Assembly: GCA_016937155.1 (NCBI GenBank)
Contig: JAFGWM010000049.1
Location: 1 to 35,257, forward strand
Origin: Deltaproteobacteria bacterium
Lineage (GTDB): Bacteria; Myxococcota_A; Polyangia; HGW-17
Length of the DNA stretch: 35,257 nt
Direction: 5' to 3'
The translations under genes and the position numbers were made by a program. The stretch's first letter is position 1; each line of letters opens with the position of its first letter. Positions 3,019 to 14,797 of the stretch are shown one piece after another. The notes beneath the pieces were generated by a model. That model did not search any database. It had not been told where the DNA came from and worked only from the letters and a program-made list of their open reading frames with translations.

Positions 3019-3489
3019 TCATTTCATTTTTTCAAGAAGTGACTTCACTCTTCTGGCGTGTCCGACTTCCTGATCCACCAGTTCTTCAAAGATACTCGAC
3101 AGAGAACCGAGATCACTGAGAGAAAGCAGAGTCCGGTACAAATCTGCAGTTGCGTTCTCTCTTTTCAGGGCAGTTGTTAATACTGTTACTGGAGTTTGTG
3201 AACCTTCCAAAGCTGGAATAGTGACTATCATATCAACCACATTACGTAATGCATCACTTTCAAGGGATGCTGATGGATTTGAAACGACACTGAAACGATC
3301 ACTAAGACGCTTTTTGTGTTTTATTTCTTCCAGACTCAGTTCTTCTAAAAGTGCAATAAGCTCATCAGTTTTATTATCTTCATCAAGATACTTGTTGATG
3401 GCATTTTCATAAAACCGGGCACTCTCTTCTTCTATATTTATTGCGAATTTAATAATTCCTTCTACGGTGAGTTGTGTATCAGTTGTCAT
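3019..3489 (-). CDS. Ferritin-like di-iron protein (rubrerythrin-type four-helix domain)
   Basis: This is a small all-helical protein of 156 residues. Its pattern fits a ferritin-like di-iron site: Glu21/22 in helix 1 (EEESARFYENA), E55-x-x-H58 in helix 2, E111 in helix 3 (KRENATADLYR) and E141-x-x-H144 in helix 4. There is no C-terminal rubredoxin CxxC pair, so it is the short form rather than a classical rubrerythrin. Family members usually remove peroxide or handle iron in anaerobes. It is the last gene of the minus-strand operon, 15 bases after the flavoprotein gene, with an AAGGAAAGG ribosome site. A role protecting or supplying the iron-sulfur-rich complex is inferred from position only. 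Confidence 0.8.
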   Translation of the reverse strand: MTTDTQLTVEGIIKFAINIEEESARFYENAINKYLDEDNKTDELIALLEELSLEEIKHKKRLSDRFSVVSNPSASLESDALRNVVDMIVTIPALEGSQTPVTVLTTALKRENATADLYRTLLSLSDLGSLSSIFEELVDQEVGHARRVKSLLEKMK

Positions 3490-3504: not shown

Positions 3505-5355
3505 TTATCCCTGATTAAACAGGGTATCAATACTTCTTGCTGCCTTGTGACCATCAGCTACTGCATGTATTACGTCGGGTCCATGAACTATATCACCTGC
3601 AATGAAAACACCTTTCAGACCACTATCCATACCATCAGAAACCTTAAATCGTCCACGTTCATGCCCCATAGCAGCTAGGTCATCTTCTGAAAGGAAGGTG
3701 TAATCACTTGCCTGACCGATGGCTTCCACCACCTGAGTTCCCGGATAGAAAGTCAGGTCATCTTCATCAATTTTAGGATTAAAACGCCTGTTCTCATCAA
3801 AAACTCTGAGGCATCTTGCACATTTAAGACCTTTTATTTTACCATCATCATCCAGTTCAATAGCCTTTGGAGCCCAGCCGGGATTTATAATTATCCCTTC
3901 CTCTATACTTTCCTCAATCTCCTCATTATCTGCAGGCATCTCTCCTTCACCCTCAAGACAGGTAAGGATAATGGAAACTTTGCCGTATTTTACCTTCTGA
4001 AGTCTGGCCATTGACCTGGCGATATCCATTGCAACGTTACCACCACCTATAATCACAATATTTTCATGAACGGGAATCTCTTCACCGAGCCGTATCTGGT
4101 TAAGAAGTAAAATAGCCAGACCTGTATCAGGATGATCATGATTTTCAATCCTTGTGGAACGCCCCATTGGAAAACCAACTGCAACAAGCACCGCATCGTA
4201 ATCTTTTCTCAGTGATTCAAAGGAGACATCCGTGCCCACTCTGGTTTTCATCCTGAAATCAACACCCATCTCAGCCATCGCTCTCACATCGTTATCAATT
4301 GATTCATCAGGAAGTCTATATGCCGGTATTCCATAGCGCATGGTTCCCCCTGCTTTAGGCATTCTTTCAAAGACTGTCACACCATGTCCCATAGTGGATA
4401 GGTAATAGGCAGCGCTTAAACCTGCAGGCCCTGCTCCGATTATTGCAACCTTTTTCCCGGAGGGAGAGAACATCTCTTTGGCACTGCTGGCAATTTCAGC
4501 TACTTTATCAGGCCCCAGAGCATCAATGGCATAACGTTTCAACCAGCGTATGGCAACCGGTTCTCCCTTGTGTGAAATTGCACATACGGACTCACACTTG
4601 TGAGTACAGATCCTGCCACAGATTCCCGGAAGAGGATTTGTCTCATACATTACACGGACACTTTCCTCCAGATCATTGTCATATATACCTCTTATATATT
4701 CCGGGATCCCCATATTTGCAGGACAGGTTTTTGTGCAGATACCGCATTCGATACATCTTGCGGCTTCCCTCAGAGCTTCTTCTTTTGTAAAACCAAGAAC
4801 AAACTCAATAAAACTTCCCACCCGTTTTTCCGGAGTCATATGTTCCATATGGCTTCTTTCCAGATCAAGCCAGGTTTCTTCCCCGTGACACTGCCAGCCG
4901 GGATTCTCCGACCATCTGGAACCAGGTTCCAGTGTAAATTCATCACACTTCCAGATTAATTCCTCCAGCGGGCTTTCCTTCTCACTCGCTCTTGTAAAAA
5001 TATACTCTCTTGTCATAGTCAGAGATCCTGAAGGACAGGCGTCAACACAAAAAGCACAGAAACAGCATCTGCCGTAATCCACAGTGGGTCGCTGGGCATT
5101 TGCCCCGGTTAGTTCAGCATCATTTACCCCCGTGGAAATCATGTTTATTGCAGCAGTGGGACATACTGTTGAACAGTTGCCACAGCCAATGCAGACATCA
5201 TGATCATTAGCATGCATACCCCTGTACTTCAGGGAAGGACCCTTTACCCCATGGACATCCAGATCCTCTTTGGGATAAGCAATTGTTTCCGGCTTCTTAA
5301 AAAGATTTGCCAGTGTTGAAAATGGCACAAAAAATGATCTTTCACCTAGTGACAT
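3505..5355 (-). CDS. NuoI/MbxN-like ferredoxin domain fused to GltD-like NAD(P)H flavoprotein
   Basis: Proposed soluble-arm subunit exchanging electrons between ferredoxin, FeS clusters and NAD(P). Residues 55-66 and 97-108 are two CxxCxxCxxxCP motifs as in NuoI/MbxN. A GltD-type FeS region follows (RCIECGICTKTCP, then a Cys-rich GICGRICTHKCESVC stretch). Next come an FAD Rossmann motif (AIIGAGPAGLSAAYYL) and a second nucleotide motif (IIGGGNVAMDIARS), as in glutamate synthase small subunit and NfnB-type enzymes. At 616 residues it is longer than GltD because of the N-terminal ferredoxin module. There is no glutamate synthase large subunit nearby. Thermotoga mbx-type operons are, as I recall, also linked to a GltD-like gene. 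The start is supported by AGGAGG ten bases after the large-subunit gene. Whether NADH or NADPH is used is not visible. Confidence 0.85.
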   Translation of the reverse strand: MSLGERSFFVPFSTLANLFKKPETIAYPKEDLDVHGVKGPSLKYRGMHANDHDVCIGCGNCSTVCPTAAINMISTGVNDAELTGANAQRPTVDYGRCCFCAFCVDACPSGSLTMTREYIFTRASEKESPLEELIWKCDEFTLEPGSRWSENPGWQCHGEETWLDLERSHMEHMTPEKRVGSFIEFVLGFTKEEALREAARCIECGICTKTCPANMGIPEYIRGIYDNDLEESVRVMYETNPLPGICGRICTHKCESVCAISHKGEPVAIRWLKRYAIDALGPDKVAEIASSAKEMFSPSGKKVAIIGAGPAGLSAAYYLSTMGHGVTVFERMPKAGGTMRYGIPAYRLPDESIDNDVRAMAEMGVDFRMKTRVGTDVSFESLRKDYDAVLVAVGFPMGRSTRIENHDHPDTGLAILLLNQIRLGEEIPVHENIVIIGGGNVAMDIARSMARLQKVKYGKVSIILTCLEGEGEMPADNEEIEESIEEGIIINPGWAPKAIELDDDGKIKGLKCARCLRVFDENRRFNPKIDEDDLTFYPGTQVVEAIGQASDYTFLSEDDLAAMGHERGRFKVSDGMDSGLKGVFIAGDIVHGPDVIHAVADGHKAARSIDTLFNQG

Positions 5356-5364
5356 TTGGGCCTC

Positions 5365-6516
5365 CTACCTGTCGATATCCGGTGGACAAATTGCAAATGA
5401 TGCCATCCAGACAGCCACATCATCAATTTTCATTCCCCTGAGATGTTTATGACAAAGATACATTCCGGCGGGCATGGAAGGTCCGCGAACACTAACACGA
5501 TAAGGTTTTAAACCTCCATCACTAACAACGTAATATCCAAACTCGCCCTTGGATGCTTCCACCTTTGAATAGGCATCACCTTTTGGAACCCTGAGTTTTG
5601 AAATATTTCCCAGATCCAGTTTGTAATCGCCATCAGGAAGCTGCTTTACCAGCCGTCTGATGATGTTTACAGCTTCTTCAAAATCAAGTCGAACCTGAAC
5701 TGCTCTTGCTAATGCATCACCACCCTCGGACAGCTTTGAATTGATTTCTATTTCATCATATGCAGCATAGGGTGTGTCGATACGAACATCAGCTTTTACA
5801 CCACAGGCTCTTAGTGAAGGACCTGTTATTCCTGAGGACATTGCCTCCTCTGCACTTATATAACCCAGACCACCGAGTCTGTCCTGTACTACAGGATTTT
5901 CATACAGCAACCTGTCCCATTCGGGAAGTTTACTTTCCAACCTGTCACAGAGTTCAAGAAGCTTATCTGTCCAGCCATCAGGAATATCTCTCCTGACACC
6001 TCCGGGAATATTGTAGATATGATAAACCCTTCCTCCAGTGAGAGCTTCAAAAAGATCCAGTATGAGATCGCGATCGATCATCATAAGATACATGGTTGAA
6101 TAGTGCCCGAGAGCACCCCCTACCCCACCCATTCCCATCAGGAAGGATCCAAGCCGGGACATTTCAAGAACAATGGATCTGATATATCTTGCCCGCCTGG
6201 GAATTTCGACACCCAAAATAGCCTCAACGGCCTGACAGTATGCCACCTCATTGGGATCCGGGTCCGGAACACAGACTCTGGGAATAAGTGACAGGTTCTG
6301 TGCCCACAACTTATTTTCCATCGCTTTTTCAAATCCCCGGTGCAGCTGTCCTGCATTAGGTCTGACCCTGAGAATTTCAGTTCCCACCATATCCAGAACA
6401 TAACCAAAGTTACCATGCATACCCGGATGGTTAGGGCCAAAAAACAGGTCGTATACAGCATAATCATCATTTTCAGAAATTTTATCCAGTGTAGTATAGC
6501 CATCAGGAAGATACAT
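5365..6516 (-). CDS. mbxL: Mbx/Mbs-type large subunit (NuoD / [NiFe]-hydrogenase large-subunit family)
   Basis: Membrane-attached catalytic-arm subunit homologous to NuoD and to hydrogenase large subunits (383 residues). The N-terminus has the family GPNHPGMHGNF motif. In place of RxCGxC there is R80-V-C82-V-P-D85, and in place of the C-terminal DPCxxC there is C377-P-P-D380 followed by IDR at the end. One Cys of each pair is therefore kept and the other is Asp, so a full four-Cys NiFe site cannot form. The protein also ends where NuoD ends, with no hydrogenase maturation tail. This fits the Mbx/Mbs branch rather than H2 production or true complex I. It starts at a TAATG overlap with the subunit C gene, so the two are translationally coupled. 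Confidence 0.88.
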   Translation of the reverse strand: MYLPDGYTTLDKISENDDYAVYDLFFGPNHPGMHGNFGYVLDMVGTEILRVRPNAGQLHRGFEKAMENKLWAQNLSLIPRVCVPDPDPNEVAYCQAVEAILGVEIPRRARYIRSIVLEMSRLGSFLMGMGGVGGALGHYSTMYLMMIDRDLILDLFEALTGGRVYHIYNIPGGVRRDIPDGWTDKLLELCDRLESKLPEWDRLLYENPVVQDRLGGLGYISAEEAMSSGITGPSLRACGVKADVRIDTPYAAYDEIEINSKLSEGGDALARAVQVRLDFEEAVNIIRRLVKQLPDGDYKLDLGNISKLRVPKGDAYSKVEASKGEFGYYVVSDGGLKPYRVSVRGPSMPAGMYLCHKHLRGMKIDDVAVWMASFAICPPDIDR

Positions 6517-7058
6517 TACTCACCATCCCTGCTTTCTTCTGCTGTTATCTCCACAATATCAATATCATCAAAAGGTGGAGTCAATCCCAGAGCATCGGTA
6601 GTATAAAGGGCCAGGGAATAATCCTTTGCAATAAAATCCTTTCGCAAAGGCGGAAGATCCAGCCAGTTATGCAGAAACAACCCACTCAGATCCGGATTCC
6701 CAGGAAAATATACTCCAAACATTTCATGAATTTCCTGTTCGTATGGTTGTACATGAGGCCAGATATTTATTGCAGTGTGCATCCAGGGTTTTTCACGATT
6801 TAGCCTTGTTTTAACCAATATATGATTCTTTGATTCATATGAAAATACGTGCCATACCAGCTCAAATTCGTTTTCTTCAATCCAGTCGATACAGCTCATG
6901 AAAGATAGATGAACATACCTTTCAGACTTCAACCATGTTAGAAGATTTAAAACATAATCACGGTGAGTTTTTATCTCTAATTGAGCTTTATATTTTTCCC
7001 TGCACTCAATTTTGTCACCATGCATTTTTCCAGCTCTTGCCAGGATATTATCAGACAT
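6516..7058 (-). CDS. mbxK: Mbx-type subunit K (NuoC family, 30-kDa subunit)
   Basis: This is the NuoC-like scaffold of the peripheral arm, binding beside the NuoB- and NuoD-like subunits. The C-terminal half holds the family signature: YEQEIHEMFGVYFPGNPDLS then PPLRKDF. The preferred start is the ATG at 7058, which has AAAGGGGG just upstream and gives MSDNILARAG (180 residues). A longer in-frame version starting at 7076 lacks a good ribosome site. The start overlaps the end of the NuoB-like gene by eight bases. No NuoCD fusion is present. Family assignment is firm; assignment to the Mbx branch rests on the operon. Confidence 0.87.
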   Translation of the reverse strand: MSDNILARAGKMHGDKIECREKYKAQLEIKTHRDYVLNLLTWLKSERYVHLSFMSCIDWIEENEFELVWHVFSYESKNHILVKTRLNREKPWMHTAINIWPHVQPYEQEIHEMFGVYFPGNPDLSGLFLHNWLDLPPLRKDFIAKDYSLALYTTDALGLTPPFDDIDIVEITAEESRDGE

Positions 7059-7689
7059 TGGATTCCCCCTTTTCAAGTGCCATCAGTTCATCAACTGAAG
7101 GATTGGAAGCAAAGGGATCATTCCAAGGTTTCAGCACAGCTTCAGTCCTGCCAAGTACCGCATCCTGATTCTTTTTATACCAGTCGTAGTGTTTTTCATA
7201 ACGCTTGTAACCAATGGCTTTACCTTCCTGAATTTCACCCATCAGTTTTTCAAAGGCGTCAATTATCGCCTGAGGACGTGGCATACATCCGGCAATAGAC
7301 ATATCCACCGGAATAAAAGCTTCAAGATGGTTAATCACCGGGTATGCATCCCAGTAAATCCCACCATTTATCGGACAAGAGCCAAATCCAACCACATACT
7401 TGGGCTCTTGCATCTGTTCGTATGACCAAATAACTCTTTTTAGAGTTTTCACACTCAGATACCCTGTAATCAAAAGGAGGTCAGCCTGTCTTGGAGTTGC
7501 CATCGGCCCCATTCCAAGTCTTTCCATGTCATATCTTGAAGTCATTGTTGGTGGAAGCTCAATTGCCCCGCAACCGGTACAATAATAAAGCATCCACATG
7601 GAGCGCTTTCTGAAATAATTCACAAGGCCTCCCCACATGTTCTGCTTTTCTTCCCTCAGGTTTGCCAGATAGAGGTTATCCATTTCCAT
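7051..7689 (-). CDS. mbxJ: Mbx-type small subunit J (NuoB / hydrogenase small-subunit family)
   Basis: This subunit carries the proximal [4Fe-4S] cluster next to the large subunit. The ligands are visible as C37-x-x-C40 (YCTGCGAIELPP), C105 (GFGSCPINGG) and C135 (IAGCMPRPQ). The CxxC spacing is that of group 4 hydrogenases and Mbh/Mbx complexes; classical complex I NuoB has two adjacent Cys here. So the cluster site is intact although the neighbouring NiFe site is not. The start has GGGGG seven bases upstream. At 212 residues it carries an unusually charged, Tyr-rich tail (roughly 155-185, KRYEKHYDWYKKNQ) beyond the core fold. Confidence 0.9.
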   Translation of the reverse strand: MEMDNLYLANLREEKQNMWGGLVNYFRKRSMWMLYYCTGCGAIELPPTMTSRYDMERLGMGPMATPRQADLLLITGYLSVKTLKRVIWSYEQMQEPKYVVGFGSCPINGGIYWDAYPVINHLEAFIPVDMSIAGCMPRPQAIIDAFEKLMGEIQEGKAIGYKRYEKHYDWYKKNQDAVLGRTEAVLKPWNDPFASNPSVDELMALEKGESNV

Positions 7690-7692
7690 AAT

Positions 7693-8592
7693 TTACCCCC
7701 AGATTCTCGTATAAATCAGTTGTAAGAGGCCGAAACTACCAGCCCAGATCCAAAGATGTCTGATACCCTGTTCTATTCTGTATCGTGCCATTACGGCATT
7801 GATACTCAAAGTAGTGAAGTATACAGCAAACATCTTCACAAGCATTACATACCAACTGGATGCACCACCAAGGAAAAGATTGACTATAAGGCCGGTCTCC
7901 ACGTAAAGTTGAACAGCGTGAAGCAAAAAGCCTATACCCAGATATTTTCCACTTAACTCAACCATCGGACCACTGGCTATTTCAGCTGGTGCAATCATAT
8001 GATCATATGGTGCCTCACCAACCATAGCCTGAAATGCTATTTCCACAGCAATGAAACCAAGTGGATATTTCCATATATGCCATGATCCGATACCATTACT
8101 CTGAGCCACGGCATAAGTCAGAAGGTCACTTGAGTTATATGTGATAAGCATTGCCATGATCACCATAACAAAAGGAATTTCGTAACCCATCATCAATGCC
8201 AGAGCCCTAGATATACCAATAGTGGCGTTTGGATTACCACTGGCACTGACCCCCATTGCCATTCCAAGATATCCGATACTCATGAGATAAAGTACAATAA
8301 CAACACTGCTGCTTCCCAGAATTGAGAAGTTGGCAAATGGAATAAAAAACGCAGTGGCAATAAGACCACCAAGAGCCATTATTATACCAAGATCCATTAC
8401 AAAGTTGTGTGTAATACTGGTTTTTGTAAAACACTTGATTACATCAATAAATGACTGATAAAACGGGGGTCCCATTCTTCTCTGGATTCTTGCTGTAACC
8501 TTGCGTCCCAGCCCCATAAAGAGCAGTCCAACAGCCATGGATCCAAATGAAACACCTATCAGTTTAATTCCAAGCAGTGCATATGCGTTCAT
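7693..8592 (-). CDS. mbxM: Mbx-type membrane anchor subunit M (NuoH family)
   Basis: An integral membrane protein of about eight helices that links the peripheral arm to the ion-pumping arm. It shows the NuoH/EchB/HycD signature GRKVTARIQRRMGPPFYQS (residues 29-47) followed by the DVIKCFTK amphipathic segment, and further on EIPFVMVIMAM and GEAPYDHMIAPAEI with conserved acidic residues on the cytoplasmic loop. Length (299) is normal for the hydrogenase-related branch. The start overlaps the stop of the upstream antiporter-like gene by four bases (ATGA), so expression is coupled. Confidence 0.9.
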   Translation of the reverse strand: MNAYALLGIKLIGVSFGSMAVGLLFMGLGRKVTARIQRRMGPPFYQSFIDVIKCFTKTSITHNFVMDLGIIMALGGLIATAFFIPFANFSILGSSSVVIVLYLMSIGYLGMAMGVSASGNPNATIGISRALALMMGYEIPFVMVIMAMLITYNSSDLLTYAVAQSNGIGSWHIWKYPLGFIAVEIAFQAMVGEAPYDHMIAPAEIASGPMVELSGKYLGIGFLLHAVQLYVETGLIVNLFLGGASSWYVMLVKMFAVYFTTLSINAVMARYRIEQGIRHLWIWAGSFGLLQLIYTRIWG

Positions 8593-10469
8593 TTCACTAC
8601 TCCAATCACAATTATTAGAATTACTCCAAGAACAAAGGACCAGCCGAGCCTTGTTCCATCAGCTGAAATTGATGTGACAAGGTTCCCCAGTCTTTCCATA
8701 AAACGCCCCAGAGCATTGTACCCCTTTTCAACAACGCCCAGTGGCATCCAGGAAAACAGTCCCTTTATGGGCTGGTAAAAGTCATAACCATAATGATATC
8801 TGTCCGGGCCGACATTCCAGTCAAGTGGATCCTCTCCACAGGTATAATTGTCCATCATTTTCACGCGGCGTTTGCGTCCGCCTATAACAAAAAGGAAGAA
8901 TACAACGCCAACCGCAAGAGCAAATACACTTGCCACTAATGTTGAATTGATACTGGTGGTGGAACCTGTCATGGAATACAGAGTTGTTTTAATGGGATTA
9001 AGACCTGCTGCCACCAAAATATCATTGAAACGGCCGGTAACCAGACCAGGGAAAATTCCTGCTGCAAGCATAAGAATCATGAGAACTATCATAGAAAGAC
9101 TCATAAGTGGTGGAGCTTCCTTTACATTCCTAAACCTTGGTGACAATTGACCGAGGAATATTGTATGCAGTCCTCTAAAGAGGTAAAGAAATGCACCTGT
9201 TGAAGCAAAAAACAGTGCGGTTGCAACGAAAACCATCTTCTTTTCAAAAAGTGCCTGGAATATCATCCATTTGGAATTAAAGCCACTCAGTGGAGGAATT
9301 CCAGCTGCTGCAATTATTCCCAGAAGGAAGGTAAAGAAGGTAATGGGCATTACGTAGGCAAGTCCGCCAAGTCGATGCATTTCCCTTTCACCTGTACGAT
9401 ATTTCACCGCAGCAAGAGAGGCAAATATTCCACCTTTGAACATCATGTGATTTACTGTATGGAACATTGCAGCTGCATATCCAAGGGATGTACCGGTAGC
9501 CAGGCCCACACCGATATATCCAACGTTGGCAACAGTCGACCATGCCATAAGTTTCTTCATATCATTAGTGAATATGGCCATAACAGTGCCTATGACACTG
9601 GTAAGTGCACTCATTACAGCAAGAATATACATTGGCCATGGTACCCCGCTTATGGATTTAATCGTTCCCCTCGGAGTGAGAGCAAAAACCGGAACGATAA
9701 AGAGCAGTAATCCATAAACACCATATTTAATCATGATTCCACTAAGATACGCACTGAAATCATCCGGAGCTTCAGCATGAGCCATCTGCGGCCACATATG
9801 GAACGGGAAAAGAGCACTTTTAGCTAAAAAGGCTACGGTAAAAAGAGACAGAACCGTCAGGGCAAATCCCCTGTGGGAAGATAAATCTTGGGCTGTTTTC
9901 AAAACACCGCTGCTTATTTCCCAGGAGCCGGTTCGATGGAAAAGCAGCCATATCCCTGCCATCATTGCCATAGTTCCGAAAAAACTCAGAGCATAGTAGT
10001 AAATACCTGCTTTGAAACTGGAAGTTTTTCCGTGTCCGATAATAAACAGACTTGTCCAGGACATCAGTTCCCATGATATGAAAAACGAAATCCAATCCTG
10101 AGAAAGGAAAATTCCATTTGTTGCCCCAACCAGCATAAGCCAGAGTGGAGCAATCGCAGTGGAATGTTTTTTATCATTGAAATCAAGGGAAAACATGGAA
10201 AACAGCAATGTAGCCGCACTGCTTATTGCCAGAAAAAACCAACCTAGGGGAGTTACCCCAAGTTTCTGCACTACTTTTCCGGTACCAAAAAGTGTCCACT
10301 GAAATGTAAATGACATTGCACCCTTTGATTTCAGTGTAAAAATCACACCTGCCAGGACAATATTCAGAAGAAAGAAAATCCACCAGTTAAGTCTCTTGGG
10401 CATGGAAAGCATCAACAACCCCAGAAGAACCGGCGCAATAACAATAAAAGGAAGCATGTTTGAAGTCAT
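8589..10469 (-). CDS. Second antiporter-like subunit (NuoL/HyfB/MbxH' type)
   Basis: A 626-residue polytopic proton-conducting transporter subunit of the NuoL/MrpD superfamily. Core signatures include ISFFISWELMSWTSLFIIG (Glu in helix 5), KSALFPFHMWPQMAHAEAPDDFSAYLSGIMIKYGVYG (Lys and HAEAP loop), and DMKKLMAWSTVANVGYIGVG (helices 7-8). The C-terminus is extended past the core by a soluble loop (YTCGEDPLDWNVGPDRYHYGY) and a final helix. That extension resembles hydrogenase-4/Ech large membrane subunits. With the MrpD-like neighbour this gives two antiporter-type subunits, the H/H' pair that distinguishes Mbx/Mbs from Mbh. RBS GGAAGG lies before the ATG, and three bases separate it from the upstream gene. 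Confidence 0.88.
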   Translation of the reverse strand: MTSNMLPFIVIAPVLLGLLMLSMPKRLNWWIFFLLNIVLAGVIFTLKSKGAMSFTFQWTLFGTGKVVQKLGVTPLGWFFLAISSAATLLFSMFSLDFNDKKHSTAIAPLWLMLVGATNGIFLSQDWISFFISWELMSWTSLFIIGHGKTSSFKAGIYYYALSFFGTMAMMAGIWLLFHRTGSWEISSGVLKTAQDLSSHRGFALTVLSLFTVAFLAKSALFPFHMWPQMAHAEAPDDFSAYLSGIMIKYGVYGLLLFIVPVFALTPRGTIKSISGVPWPMYILAVMSALTSVIGTVMAIFTNDMKKLMAWSTVANVGYIGVGLATGTSLGYAAAMFHTVNHMMFKGGIFASLAAVKYRTGEREMHRLGGLAYVMPITFFTFLLGIIAAAGIPPLSGFNSKWMIFQALFEKKMVFVATALFFASTGAFLYLFRGLHTIFLGQLSPRFRNVKEAPPLMSLSMIVLMILMLAAGIFPGLVTGRFNDILVAAGLNPIKTTLYSMTGSTTSINSTLVASVFALAVGVVFFLFVIGGRKRRVKMMDNYTCGEDPLDWNVGPDRYHYGYDFYQPIKGLFSWMPLGVVEKGYNALGRFMERLGNLVTSISADGTRLGWSFVLGVILIIVIGVVK

Positions 10470-10472
10470 AAA

Positions 10473-11978
10473 TCACCTTCCCATAGCTTTATAAACGGTT
10501 GAAATATATCCGCTGGTATTATCACCACGCAGCTCACTAGGTATCTTTTTGATTTTTCTGTCCAGTGGGGCAGGGAAAACTCCAATGATGACCACGGCCA
10601 GTGCCAGTAAAGTGGTACATGTCCAGAAAACGATTCCCGTATTGACTTTACCTGGTTTTCTTTCAGGTTCTTCAAAAAGAGCATGAGCCAGTCTCAGAAA
10701 ATACACCGCTTCCATAACAGTTGCTGCAAGTATAATATAAACCCCAAGATAGCTTGAGCCGGTTGATTTAAAAGCGCTGCCGATTATAGTGAATTTTCCC
10801 CAGAATCCTGCAAAAAGTGGAATTCCTGTCACACCAAGAGCTCCAATTATAAAGAATATTCCAAGAATAGAATTTTTTCGTCCAATACCCTTCCATCTGG
10901 TCCAGTCTGAAGTACCTGTGGCAGACACAAGTCGACCAACGATCATGAAAAGAAGCAATTTTGAAATACTGTGAGTAATCAGGGCAAATACTGCACCATA
11001 TATTGATTTCTCACTTGCAATTGCAATAGCCATTAGGATCATTCCCATCTGACCCACACTTGACCATGCCAGCATTCGCTTGGCATCCTTTTGTGTAAAA
11101 GCAGACGCTTCACCTGTAACAACTGTTACAACACCCATCCAGAAAAGGATCGAGGTAATATTAAAGGATCCGAATCGGATGATGTTTCCCATCCCCGCTC
11201 CAAACACTATGTAACTGATTCTCAACATTGCGTATGCTCCTGCAAGAGCAACAGCACTGCTTAATAATCCACTGATACTTGAGGGTGCACCCCTGTAAGC
11301 ACTCCCAACCCATGAGTTAAATGGAAATATCTCCATCTCCGTGAACAGAGAGGCAAGAATCAGCAGTACCGCCAGAGCCGCCATAGCTGAATTCATTTCC
11401 CTTAGCCCACCACTAATCTGCGCCATGTTGAGGGTTCCGGTACTGGAGTAAATGATTGCAATAGCGGCAAGATACGCGACACTTGCAAGAGAAGCTACAA
11501 CCATATACTGAAGAGCACCACGCACACCGGCAGTTTTATTTCCGCTTGCAATTAAAGCCCATGAACTAATTCCCGCTATTTCCATAAAAACAAACAGGTT
11601 AAAAAGATCCCCAGTAAGAATCATTCCGTTAAGGGATGTAAGCAGAAGAAGAATGAGCATGTAGAAATAAGGTTTCTTCACAACAACAGATGATAGTTGA
11701 AATGCAATTCCAAGAGTTACTGCACCATAAACAACTGTTGCAAAAAGAAGACTGAGCATATCAACATGCAGATTAATTCCGAATGGTGGTATCCACCCAC
11801 CCATGATGACAGTAAAAGGTGTCTTGTAGGTGATGAGTAAAAATACACTCAGCACAGTACCCGCCAAAGCTGTTAAAAAAGAAAGCCCTTTTGACAAGGC
11901 CGGCATTACATGGCCTAAAAACGGCACAAGAAAAGCCATTGCCATAGGAGCTACAATCAGGAAAATCGAGTATTTCAT
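10473..11978 (-). CDS. mbxH: MrpD-like antiporter subunit (MbxH)
   Basis: A 501-residue polytopic membrane protein of the MrpD/NuoN family. Diagnostic segments are DLFNLFVFMEIAGISSWALIA (helix-5 Glu), FPFNSWVGSAYRGAPSSISGLLSS (Lys/Arg loop before the discontinuous helix) and DAKRMLAWSSVGQMGMILMAIA. In Mrp antiporters and Mbh/Mbx complexes this subunit forms one of the ion channels and pairs with MrpC. Its start overlaps the stop of the MrpC-like gene by one base (TAATG). Whether Na+ or H+ is moved cannot be decided from these motifs, though an Mrp-type module suggests Na+/H+ exchange. Confidence 0.89.
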   Translation of the reverse strand: MKYSIFLIVAPMAMAFLVPFLGHVMPALSKGLSFLTALAGTVLSVFLLITYKTPFTVIMGGWIPPFGINLHVDMLSLLFATVVYGAVTLGIAFQLSSVVVKKPYFYMLILLLLTSLNGMILTGDLFNLFVFMEIAGISSWALIASGNKTAGVRGALQYMVVASLASVAYLAAIAIIYSSTGTLNMAQISGGLREMNSAMAALAVLLILASLFTEMEIFPFNSWVGSAYRGAPSSISGLLSSAVALAGAYAMLRISYIVFGAGMGNIIRFGSFNITSILFWMGVVTVVTGEASAFTQKDAKRMLAWSSVGQMGMILMAIAIASEKSIYGAVFALITHSISKLLLFMIVGRLVSATGTSDWTRWKGIGRKNSILGIFFIIGALGVTGIPLFAGFWGKFTIIGSAFKSTGSSYLGVYIILAATVMEAVYFLRLAHALFEEPERKPGKVNTGIVFWTCTTLLALAVVIIGVFPAPLDRKIKKIPSELRGDNTSGYISTVYKAMGR

Positions 11979-12346
11979 TATTCCTCAACCTCCTCTTCCC
12001 TTTTATCTTCCATTTCAAGGGTTCCTGTTCCTTCACGATATTTAATCATGAGTGCAAGAGCAAGTGCCGTAACACCCAGACCGATTACAATACTAGTAAG
12101 AACAAGTGCCTGAGGAAGTGGATCCGCGTATGAATCCGCTGTTTTAACGTTAAATATTTTCCCCAGAATCGGAGCCCGAACGCCATCCCAGTAACTGGCG
12201 GCAACAATGAAGAGGTTCACTCCGGTTTCCATCAGTCCAAGGCTGAGGATAAGCCTGAAAATATTTTTATGAGTCAATACACCGTAGAGACCTATCATCA
12301 TCAGTGCAAAAGCACCAATTCCGAAAAGAAAAACAGGATTATTCAT
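11978..12346 (-). CDS. mbxG: MrpC/NuoK-like subunit (MbxG)
   Basis: A small three-helix membrane protein (122 residues) of the MnhC/NuoK family. It shows the family pattern in helix 1 (GIGAFALMMIGLYGVLTHKNIFRLILSLGLMETGVNLFIV), with the conserved Glu in GLMETGVN, and in helix 3 (DPLPQALVLTSIVIGLGVTALALALMIKYRE). The highly charged tail (MEDKREEEVEE) is unusual but cytoplasmic by prediction. It overlaps the upstream gene by eight bases (ATGAATAA) and the downstream MrpD-like gene by one, so it sits in the middle of the coupled antiporter block. Confidence 0.88.
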   Translation of the reverse strand: MNNPVFLFGIGAFALMMIGLYGVLTHKNIFRLILSLGLMETGVNLFIVAASYWDGVRAPILGKIFNVKTADSYADPLPQALVLTSIVIGLGVTALALALMIKYREGTGTLEMEDKREEEVEE

Positions 12347-13082
12347 GCTCTTCCTCCAAGTCTTCCTTTACAAAGGAACCAAAACCACTTGAAAGTTCTG
12401 CAGCCACCTTAATACCTATAATGGCATAAAGCACTGTTATAAAAAGACTTCCAAACAAAGACCCCATTTCTCCGGTTCCCATAAAATTCTGCAGAAAACT
12501 GCCTTTTTTCAGAAAACCCAGTAACCCAACTAAAACAAAGGAAAGTCCGGCGAATGACTCAAGCATCCTGAAAACGCCTGAAGGTTTTGTTCTGAAACCA
12601 AGAACCATAAGAAGAAAGCCAGCTGCTATCATTGCTCCACCGGGAAATCCTCCACCAGGTGTGAGATGGCCATGTAAAAACACATAAGCACTGGTTATCA
12701 GTATAAAAAGTGCAATCCAGGGAGCCAAGGATGAAATAATTGGACCTGCCGGAGTAATAACTCTTTTCTTCTGACCACCAAGAAGCAGACCAATGCCTGC
12801 GATGGCGGCAAAAAGAACTGTAACCTCACCAAGGGTATCAAAACCCCGGTAGTCGAGCACCACTGCAGTGACGATATTGGAACTGCTGTTTTCCAGCCCC
12901 TTCATTCCCCTCATAATAGATGAATGTTTCTTTCCATTTACTGTTTTCGCGAGATATGCTCTGCTGACATCATTCTGAGCTTTGCGTTTGAATGGTTTTG
13001 ACCCGGGCTGTGTACTGGAAAAGGCGGCATAAACACCATAACTGATAATTCCAATCATGAGAATTGCAGCAATTTTATTCAT
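12339..13082 (-). CDS. mbxF: Fused MbhE-like/MrpB-like membrane subunit (MbxF)
   Basis: The protein has two parts. The N-terminal 100 residues match the MrpA C-terminal/MbhE region, with NIVTAVVLDYRGFDTLGEV as signature. The rest is MrpB-like: SSLAPWIALFILITSAYVFLHGHLTPGGGFPGGAMIAAG, then further helices and an acidic tail. The ATG at 13082 is preferred (GGAGGACAGTG upstream; eight-base ATGAATAA overlap with the gene before); the longer frame to 13121 runs far back into that gene. This subunit contributes to the Mrp-type Na+/H+ module. An E-F fusion agrees with the Mbx gene list, which as I recall has no separate E. Confidence 0.85.
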   Translation of the reverse strand: MNKIAAILMIGIISYGVYAAFSSTQPGSKPFKRKAQNDVSRAYLAKTVNGKKHSSIMRGMKGLENSSSNIVTAVVLDYRGFDTLGEVTVLFAAIAGIGLLLGGQKKRVITPAGPIISSLAPWIALFILITSAYVFLHGHLTPGGGFPGGAMIAAGFLLMVLGFRTKPSGVFRMLESFAGLSFVLVGLLGFLKKGSFLQNFMGTGEMGSLFGSLFITVLYAIIGIKVAAELSSGFGSFVKEDLEEEHE

Positions 13083-13335
13083 CACTGTCCTCCTGACCTG
13101 AATTACTCCTCCTGAGAGCAATTACAAAAAGAGAAGTACTCAGACCGGCACCTATGACAGCCTGAGTAATGGCAACATCCGGAGCACTCATCTGAAGAAA
13201 AAGCAGTGCAGCCATCAAAGATACCACACCTTCTAAAATAGCAGCCCCAATGAGACTTCTGATTGACACTACTGCAGCAGCTCCCGCAAGCATCGCAAGG
13301 GTAACGCTCAGTATGAGTATGTTATTCGGACTCAT
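13075..13335 (-). CDS. mbxD: MbhD-like subunit (DUF4040, MrpA C-terminal-like)
   Basis: A small, three-helix hydrophobic protein (86 residues from the preferred start). SAPDVAITQAVIGAGLSTSLFVIAL is the MrpA/MbhD signature near the C-terminus. The start at 13335 (MSPNNILILSV) has GGAGGGGG immediately upstream; the longer frame from 13362 has none. It overlaps the end of the MrpG-like gene by 14 bases. In Mrp antiporters these helices belong to the large MrpA subunit. Here, as in Mbh/Mbx complexes, they are a separate gene followed by the E/B fusion. Confidence 0.83.
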   Translation of the reverse strand: MSPNNILILSVTLAMLAGAAAVVSIRSLIGAAILEGVVSLMAALLFLQMSAPDVAITQAVIGAGLSTSLFVIALRRSNSGQEDSDE

Positions 13336-13654
13336 CTTCCCCCTCCTTTTTTGTTCTGTCACAGGATGCTACTTTTCCCTCCGGTTTAATGCCGGCAATG
13401 TAAGCGGCACGAGCGAGATTGTGACTGCTCACAGGTGCAGTTAAAACAAGGAAAAATACCATAAGGATGAGTTTGGGAAACCACACAGGATTATAAAACC
13501 CTGCCCCCAGCGCCACACCTATAAACCCTAAAGTTGTAGCCTTGGTTCCAGCCTGTAGCCTGTTGTAAATATCAGGCATTCTAACCAGTCCCAGAGCTCC
13601 CAGAAACATGAAAACAACACCTATTGTAATTGTTACAGCACCAATAGTTTCCAT
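13322..13654 (-). CDS. mbxC: MrpG/MnhG-like subunit (MbxC)
   Basis: A 110-residue membrane subunit of the MnhG/PhaG family. The signature is FMFLGALGLVRMPDIYNRLQAGTKATTLGFIGVALGAG, followed by the last helix and TAPVSSHNLARAAY. The acidic C-terminus is extended past the family core. It starts one base after the stop of the MrpF-like gene, and its 3' end encodes the ribosome site of the next gene. It belongs to the Mrp-type ion-translocating part of the complex. Confidence 0.87.
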   Translation of the reverse strand: METIGAVTITIGVVFMFLGALGLVRMPDIYNRLQAGTKATTLGFIGVALGAGFYNPVWFPKLILMVFFLVLTAPVSSHNLARAAYIAGIKPEGKVASCDRTKKEGEDESE

Positions 13655-13655
13655 C

Positions 13656-13910
13656 TCAGACCCCCCTCTCCAGATATCTGGCGACTGCCATAACAGTTAT
13701 GAAGGAAAGTATTGAATAAACCAGGGAAACATCAATAAGGATCGAACTTTTATGCACCATTGCGATAATTATCATGAGTCCACTGACTATTGTGGTCATA
13801 ACATCAACCGCAGCAACACGATCGGGGGATGTAGGTCCCAAAAGTGATCTGACAACACTCAGAACTATTCCAAGTGCAAGAGCGACAAACCAGATATATA
13901 TAAGTGTCAT
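13656..13910 (-). CDS. mbxB: MrpF/MnhF-like subunit (MbxB)
   Basis: A small three-helix membrane subunit (84 residues from MTLIYIWFVALALGIVLSVV). It contains the family segment LLGPTSPDRVAAVDVMTTIVSG, in which the Asp-Arg pair is conserved in MrpF proteins. The ATG at 13910 gives a four-base ATGA overlap with the MrpE-like gene. The longer frame to 14000 would add a charged, non-homologous head and is rejected. Part of the Mrp-type module. Confidence 0.85.
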   Translation of the reverse strand: MTLIYIWFVALALGIVLSVVRSLLGPTSPDRVAAVDVMTTIVSGLMIIIAMVHKSSILIDVSLVYSILSFITVMAVARYLERGV

Positions 13911-14392
13911 TCGGATATCCTCCTGATATGATCTTCGAAAGGAGTAGTCAGTTTTTTTATATCTTCTTCCTTTGAAGGAACATTTACACAGTGGATACAC
14001 AAGTCGTCATTCTCAACCTGAACAGTAAGTGTACCCGGTGTCAGAGTTATAGAATTGGCAAGCATTGCTCTGGATATATCCCGTTTTAGTTTTGTTGGTA
14101 CTCGGACGATACCCGGGTTTATAGGCAGAAATGGATGTAAAACCACATATGCCACCTGAAGATTCGCCTTAATCAACTGGTAAGAGAAAACAGGCAGGTA
14201 TATTAAAAAACCTATTATTCTAACAGGATTGATAATATCAACTTTGCCCTTTACGAAGCCCATTGCAATAAGCGAAGCTACAGCAGCAACCACACTTCCC
14301 ATAATCAGTTCATGGACAGAAAAGGGGAATGTCAGAGCAAGCCATACAATAAGGGACACGACAAAAAGATTAATAAACCGCAGTACCTTCAT
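13907..14392 (-). CDS. mbxA: MrpE/MnhE-like subunit (MbxA)
   Basis: A 161-residue membrane protein of the MnhE/PhaE family. Two N-terminal hydrophobic segments are followed by PVFSYQLIKANLQVAYVVLHP and the soluble signature LKRDISRAMLANSITLTPGTLTVQVENDDLCIHCVNV. The last part is a short cytoplasmic domain. It is the first structural gene of the complex and lies nine bases after the ArsR-type regulator, so the regulator is probably co-transcribed with the operon. Confidence 0.88.
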   Translation of the reverse strand: MKVLRFINLFVVSLIVWLALTFPFSVHELIMGSVVAAVASLIAMGFVKGKVDIINPVRIIGFLIYLPVFSYQLIKANLQVAYVVLHPFLPINPGIVRVPTKLKRDISRAMLANSITLTPGTLTVQVENDDLCIHCVNVPSKEEDIKKLTTPFEDHIRRISE

Positions 14393-14401
14393 TTTTCACC
14401 A

Positions 14402-14728
14402 CTATCCTTCCAGAAATGGTTCAGCTTGCCTCAGCAGCTTTTCACGAATAAATTCACGAACGAGATCGCAAGCATTCAAAAGATCCTTAAACTCCATTAT
14501 AACAACAACTGCACGCCCTTCAGTTTTTGTGGAAATAATACCAGCCTTCTTTAAAATACTAATCTGTTGACTGAGGTTGGCCTTACTCACTCCAAGAATT
14601 TCACGTAAGTCAGAGACATGCATCTCACCGGAATTCTTTAGTAAATACATAATCTTCAACCTAGTTTTATTAGCAATAACTTTAAGTAAATCCACCTGAA
14701 GGTCAATAACTTTTTCAATTGATTGCAT
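14402..14728 (-). CDS. ArsR-family winged-helix regulator at the head of the Mbx-like operon
   Basis: A short DNA-binding protein (108 residues from the chosen start). It shows the ArsR core IANKTRLKIMYLLKNSGEMHVSDLREILGVSKANLSQQISILKKAGIISTKTEGRAVV: a recognition helix around SKANLSQQIS and a beta wing after it. The only Cys is in NACDLV near the C-terminus, so neither the ELCVCD metal site nor a CxxC redox switch is present. The start is uncertain. ATG 14728 leaves room for a leader behind the predicted promoter, while ATG 14761 would be almost leaderless and the 14779 frame overlaps the -10. It probably controls its own operon. Pyrococcus SurR, also ArsR-like, controls mbh/mbx in response to sulfur, but SurR uses a CxxC that is missing here. 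Confidence 0.82.
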   Translation of the reverse strand: MQSIEKVIDLQVDLLKVIANKTRLKIMYLLKNSGEMHVSDLREILGVSKANLSQQISILKKAGIISTKTEGRAVVVIMEFKDLLNACDLVREFIREKLLRQAEPFLEG

Positions 14729-14768
14729 ATCTTCTATCGTTCTTTTGTTCACACGTTCCATGGTTAAA

Positions 14769-14797
14769 GAATTAAGCAACTATCAAACCTTTGTCAA
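14769..14797 (-). promoter_or_regulatory. Predicted sigma-70 promoter of the arsR-mbx operon
   Basis: On the minus strand a perfect -35 TTGACA (14792-14797) is followed after 17 bases by TAATTC (14769-14774), a weak -10. Transcription would start near 14762, just before the regulator gene. A nearby inverted repeat AACAAT (14808-14813)/ATTGTT (14824-14829) lies upstream and could be an operator. Confidence 0.5.

Follow-up and report, generated by a model that had tools for sequence, protein, structure and literature searches.

Judging from residues, homology, gene order, and phylogeny, the product of the large-subunit gene examined here is probably the L subunit of a bacterial complex of the MBS/MBX type that would pump ions. 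Its pair of C-x-x-D motifs is in itself ordinary, i.e., the already-known MBS state, and C82, D85, C377, and D380 are probably non-catalytic remnants within such a complex. Compared to these pairs, the NAD(P)H module fused to the N subunit and a conserved histidine of the L subunit (H34) represent a more open question.

Within the window (the entire stretch of DNA analyzed, 35,257 nucleotides), the minus strand from 6516 to 5365 translates as a 383-amino-acid open frame, while the plus strand carries many stops across the same interval. Residues 80–85 read RVCVPD and residues 377–380 read CPPD, which, along with seven relatives, confirmed the original observation of one Cys per former CxxC. 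Cysteines are found at positions 82, 94, 190, 238, 355, and 377, and only two C-x-x-[DE] strings occur, at 82 and 377. A search for CxxC pairs through the whole 383-residue subunit found none, which rules out another CxxC as the occupant of the former [NiFe] site. Since both motifs are retained in the seven relatives (69–90% identity), with C82, D85, C377, and D380 each present in 8/8 sequences including the window L subunit, chance or assembly error can also be ruled out as their source. Pfam and NCBIfam both assign the subunit as a NuoD-like protein.

The best PDB sequence match of the L subunit was MbsL from MBS, the membrane-bound sulfane sulfur reductase of Pyrococcus furiosus (6u8y_L, E-value 7.4e-97, residues 19–383), with weaker matches to Nqo4 (3.9e-66) and MbhL (2.4e-38). 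The alignment to 6u8y_L, whose numbering agrees with the published C85 and C385 (PMC7684303), places C82 on C85, D85 on E88, C377 on C385, and D380 on D388, and thus puts all four residues at former [NiFe] ligand positions, as had been anticipated. MbsL itself reads C85-V-P-E88 and C385-P-P-D388, with one Cys left and one acid gained at each site. An AlphaFold2 model of the L subunit alone (pLDDT 86, pTM 0.87, with residues 377–383 below 50) had 6u8y_L as its top fold match (TM 0.88/0.90, 44% identity), and also resembled Nqo4 of complex I (4hea_4, TM 0.85). The geometry of the four residues is taken from the homologous MBS structure, and any arrangement proposed for them here would follow that template. 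The hydrogenase subunits MbhL (6cfw_L) and HycE (7z0s_E) share the ancestral fold and the position of the site; however, their first site is a CxxC (C-G-I-C in the alignment) where the window has CxxD. MBH has four Cys ligands according to the MBS report (PMC7684303), and the two CxxC motifs that bind NiFe in group 4 [NiFe] hydrogenases are absent from the window subunit. Separately, a hydrogenase-4-like large subunit in a relative (G001, contig 114; L066, 604–1650) reads AAGDTT where MbhL has CGICSF, and appears from its sequence to be another hydrogenase-derived protein with metal ligands lost, in this case without a Cys at the first site.

We evaluated conservation across an alignment of 62 rows, 12 from the MBS clade and 50 of complex I type. 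C82 was found in 12/12 MBS-clade rows and C377 in 11/12, position 85 was always acidic (Asp in 8, Glu in 4), and position 380 was either Asp (9) or Glu (3). An acid at 380 was, however, found in 62/62 rows, with 48 Glu and 2 Asp among the 50 rows of complex I type, and is thus general to the aligned non-hydrogenase members; the only acid specific to the MBS clade is the one at position 85. Because this acid is common to every complex I-type row, D380 is not a lone leftover of a lost Cys in this lineage. The description of the site as symmetrically half-degraded and intermediate between hydrogenase and complex I therefore stands as far as the intermediate state is concerned, but this state is neither new nor specific to this protein, since C82 is combined with an acid at 85 throughout the 12 MBS-clade rows and the authors of the MBS report have argued for such an intermediate before (PMC7684303). 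A tree of 53 rows, with MbhL and HycE as the root and a single archaeal MBS sequence, grouped the window clade with MbsL (support 95/81); these together with a paralogue group formed an MBS clade separate from complex I (100/99). A single-sequence search of genome contigs returned only two close relatives, and sampling is thin outside Myxococcota.

The gene content and order of the surrounding operon (A-B-C-D-EF-G-H-H'-M-J-K-L-N, Table 1) match MBS/MBX, with an Mrp-like arm (H and H') joined to M, J, K, L, and N. The full set and order were also found in the relatives L067, L068, and L073 and in three paralogue loci, while the L003, L004, and L069 stretches stop before the whole gene set is covered. 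Given its position and conservation, the ArsR-family protein at the operon head is likely the operon regulator. None of the genes found next to the operon is sulfur-specific. Adjoining the operon on the plus strand are the fused alpha/gamma and the beta subunits of a 2-oxoacid:ferredoxin oxidoreductase (350–2873), a possible source of reduced ferredoxin, and a rubrerythrin/ferritin-like protein (3019–3489) also adjoins the operon and is kept in L003, L004, L067, and L073.

Table 1 Features of the MBS/MBX-type operon in the window
Feature	Coordinates	Strand	Basis or remark
N subunit: NuoI-like ferredoxin domain (residues 6–127) and NfnL/GltD-like FAD/NAD(P)H oxidoreductase (residues 168–611)	3505..5355	-	
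L subunit (MbsL/NuoD-like, 383 aa)	5365..6516	-	PF00346-type, MbsL alignment, residue counts
C377-P-P-D380	about 5377-5388	-	within L subunit
C82-V-P-D85	about 6262-6273	-	within L subunit
K subunit (MbsK/NuoC-like)	6516..7076	-	Pfam Complex1_30kDa 4.5e-27
J subunit (MbsJ/NuoB-like); CTGC motif C37/C40, C105, C135	7051..7689	-	ungapped MbsJ alignment
M subunit (MbsM/NuoH-like membrane anchor)	7693..8592	-	Pfam NADHdh 3e-55
H' antiporter-like subunit	8589..10469	-	best NCBIfam PRK08668, below its cut-off
H antiporter-like subunit (MrpD/NuoN-like)	10473..11978	-	best NCBIfam PRK08377, below its cut-off
G subunit (MrpC/NuoK-like)	11978..12346	-	
E/F subunits fused (MbhE + MnhB domains)	12339..13121	-	
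D subunit (MbhD domain)	13075..13362	-	
C subunit (MrpG-like)	13322..13654	-	
B subunit (MrpF-like)	13656..14000	-	
A subunit (MrpE-like)	13907..14392	-	
ArsR-family regulator, operon head	14402..14779	-	kept in L067, L068, L073

The J subunit likewise follows the MBS pattern. It matched MbsJ (4.6e-68) without gaps over 162 residues, CTGC motif included, with C37, C40, C105, and C135 aligned to MbsJ C25, C28, C93, and C123, while the match to MbhJ covered 3 residues more than the J query stretch, i.e., the MBS-type stretch is three residues shorter than its MBH counterpart. The claim that the proximal cluster cysteines are all intact was thus borne out for the four residues, but not for four ligands: according to the MBS report (PMC7684303), MbsJ C25 is not a cluster ligand, which leaves one iron open for catalysis, and a C25A mutant had wild-type activity. 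The paralogue group (L002, L034, and L035) carries Gly where MbsJ has C25, a natural variant that agrees with a non-ligand role of this residue. By homology, the window J cluster is most likely of the MBS type.

The genome, which is 95% complete, contains only two PF00346 loci, both MBS-type, and a search for a canonical complex I found none. The second MBS-type operon (G000 contig 67; L072, 1521–12198) has H and H' in one 1055-amino-acid frame, L motifs CVPE and YPPE, and GTGC as its J motif; here, too, N is fused to the flavoprotein.

Compared to the MBS of P. furiosus (PDB 6u8y, PMC7684303), the window complex is alike in retaining exactly two of the four [NiFe] cysteines with one acid per former CxxC, in its J motif, and in gene content, but differs in having Asp85 instead of Glu, a complex I-like HPGMHG loop containing H34, an N subunit that continues into an NAD(P)H flavoprotein of the NfnL/GltD type where the MBS N stands alone, and an apparently anaerobic Myxococcota host. 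Bacterial MBS homologues have been described from Thermotoga maritima, where mbx is raised by sulfur (PMC9431562), and from strain 3DAC (PMC10356935); these are described as 13-gene MBS homologues induced by sulfur in their hosts, which belong to another phylum. With NuoD/Nqo4 of complex I, the window subunit shares the fold, H34, and the acid at 380, yet it keeps C82 and C377, has Val83 instead of the quinone Tyr (Nqo4 Y87), and belongs to an operon with another membrane arm and without a NuoF-type input module.

Whether the Cys and Asp pairs still form a working site can mostly be judged from MBS, which has kept only two of its four [NiFe] cysteines, ~12 Å from the proximal cluster (PMC7684303). 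This proximity, along with an invariant C82, a nearly invariant C377, and an acid always present at 85 and 380 across the MBS clade, would fit a persulfide on C82/C377 or a two-Cys/two-carboxylate metal, and such conservation exceeds what pure remnants need. However, with dimethyltrisulfide as substrate the MbsL C85A/C385A double mutant was about as active as the wild type, which indicates that C85 and C385 are not catalytic in MBS, although this involved one model substrate and one archaeal enzyme; the available part of the same source mentions no metal there. The paralogue L002 in the same genome carries Tyr at position 377, so that the paralogues, with Gly for MbsJ C25 and Tyr for C377, are a partial natural repeat of the mutant test, and complex I has an acid at 380 as well. 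The original suggestion that the pairs bind a metal or sulfane sulfur is thus countered by both the active mutant and Tyr377, and a working site appears very improbable. Because MBS already shows the Cys/Asp pattern and its mutant is active, this pattern adds little by itself.

More weight falls on H34 and the fused N subunit when considering what the complex reduces. H34 lies near the N-terminus of L, aligns with Nqo4 H38, and is found in 8/8 window-clade members, while MbsL lacks a His at this position; its conservation counts against a plain MBS-like acceptor, and would be expected if the complex were an NAD(P)H- or ferredoxin:quinone reductase functionally nearer complex I. A weak MenA-like prenyltransferase gene also adjoins a polyprenyl diphosphate synthase in the same genome (L076, 1420–3218). 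We nevertheless consider such a reductase improbable, as the position of Nqo4 Y87 is Val in 12/12 MBS-clade rows and Tyr in 50/50 complex I-type rows, and no match to MenD, MqnA/D, bd oxidase, or haem-copper oxidase was found in the 95% complete genome, where a quinone is unlikely. The absence of the Nqo4 H38 and Y87 ligands was noted for MbsL by the MBS authors (PMC7684303), and is not treated here as a strict family criterion. The fused N subunit, the last gene of the operon (best NCBIfam PRK13984, below its cut-off), recurs in the relatives and the paralogous operon, and its flavoprotein domain points to a role for NAD(P)H as the donor or the acceptor of electrons; a literature search for NuoI-Nfn fusions in Mrp-linked complexes found nothing relevant. 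Were this domain to take up the electrons and the L chamber to serve conformational coupling only, the complex would be an ion-pumping ferredoxin:NAD(P)+ oxidoreductase, which the neighboring 2-oxoacid:ferredoxin oxidoreductase would suit and which follows an older Mbx proposal cited in PMC6349859. This is possible but rather unlikely: the genome's Rnf operon (RnfC, RnfB-like neighbor) would already fill this role, the MBS of P. furiosus was described in this way before being shown to reduce sulfane sulfur (PMC7684303), and both the proximal cluster motif and the subunits that form the chamber are of the MBS kind. A functional intermediate, in which oxidation of NAD(P)H, alone or with ferredoxin, is coupled to reduction of sulfane sulfur or a quinone-like acceptor while C82 and C377 tune the chamber, has a similarly small chance of being correct.

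For the preferred MBS/MBX-type complex, we propose a membrane arm of the Mrp antiporter type, joined to a peripheral arm that derives from hydrogenase but no longer has the [NiFe] site. Either ferredoxin or NAD(P)H would donate electrons to the fused N subunit, whose [4Fe-4S] clusters would relay them to the proximal cluster of J; this cluster would have three Cys ligands if its chemistry is as described for MBS (PMC7684303). It may then reduce a small acceptor in a chamber bounded by L, J, and M, while the Mrp-like arm would pump ions, with C82/D85 and C377/D380 presumably lining the chamber as [NiFe] ligand remnants and not as a metal site. The acceptor is most likely polysulfide or sulfane sulfur, and polysulfide specifically is slightly favored.

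Taken together, these observations would extend MBS-type respiration to a Myxococcota lineage seemingly without canonical complex I. They also provide sequences standing between MBS and complex I, with two Cys and the quinone His kept and the quinone Tyr absent, and such intermediates may be useful for tracing the loss of the [NiFe] site.
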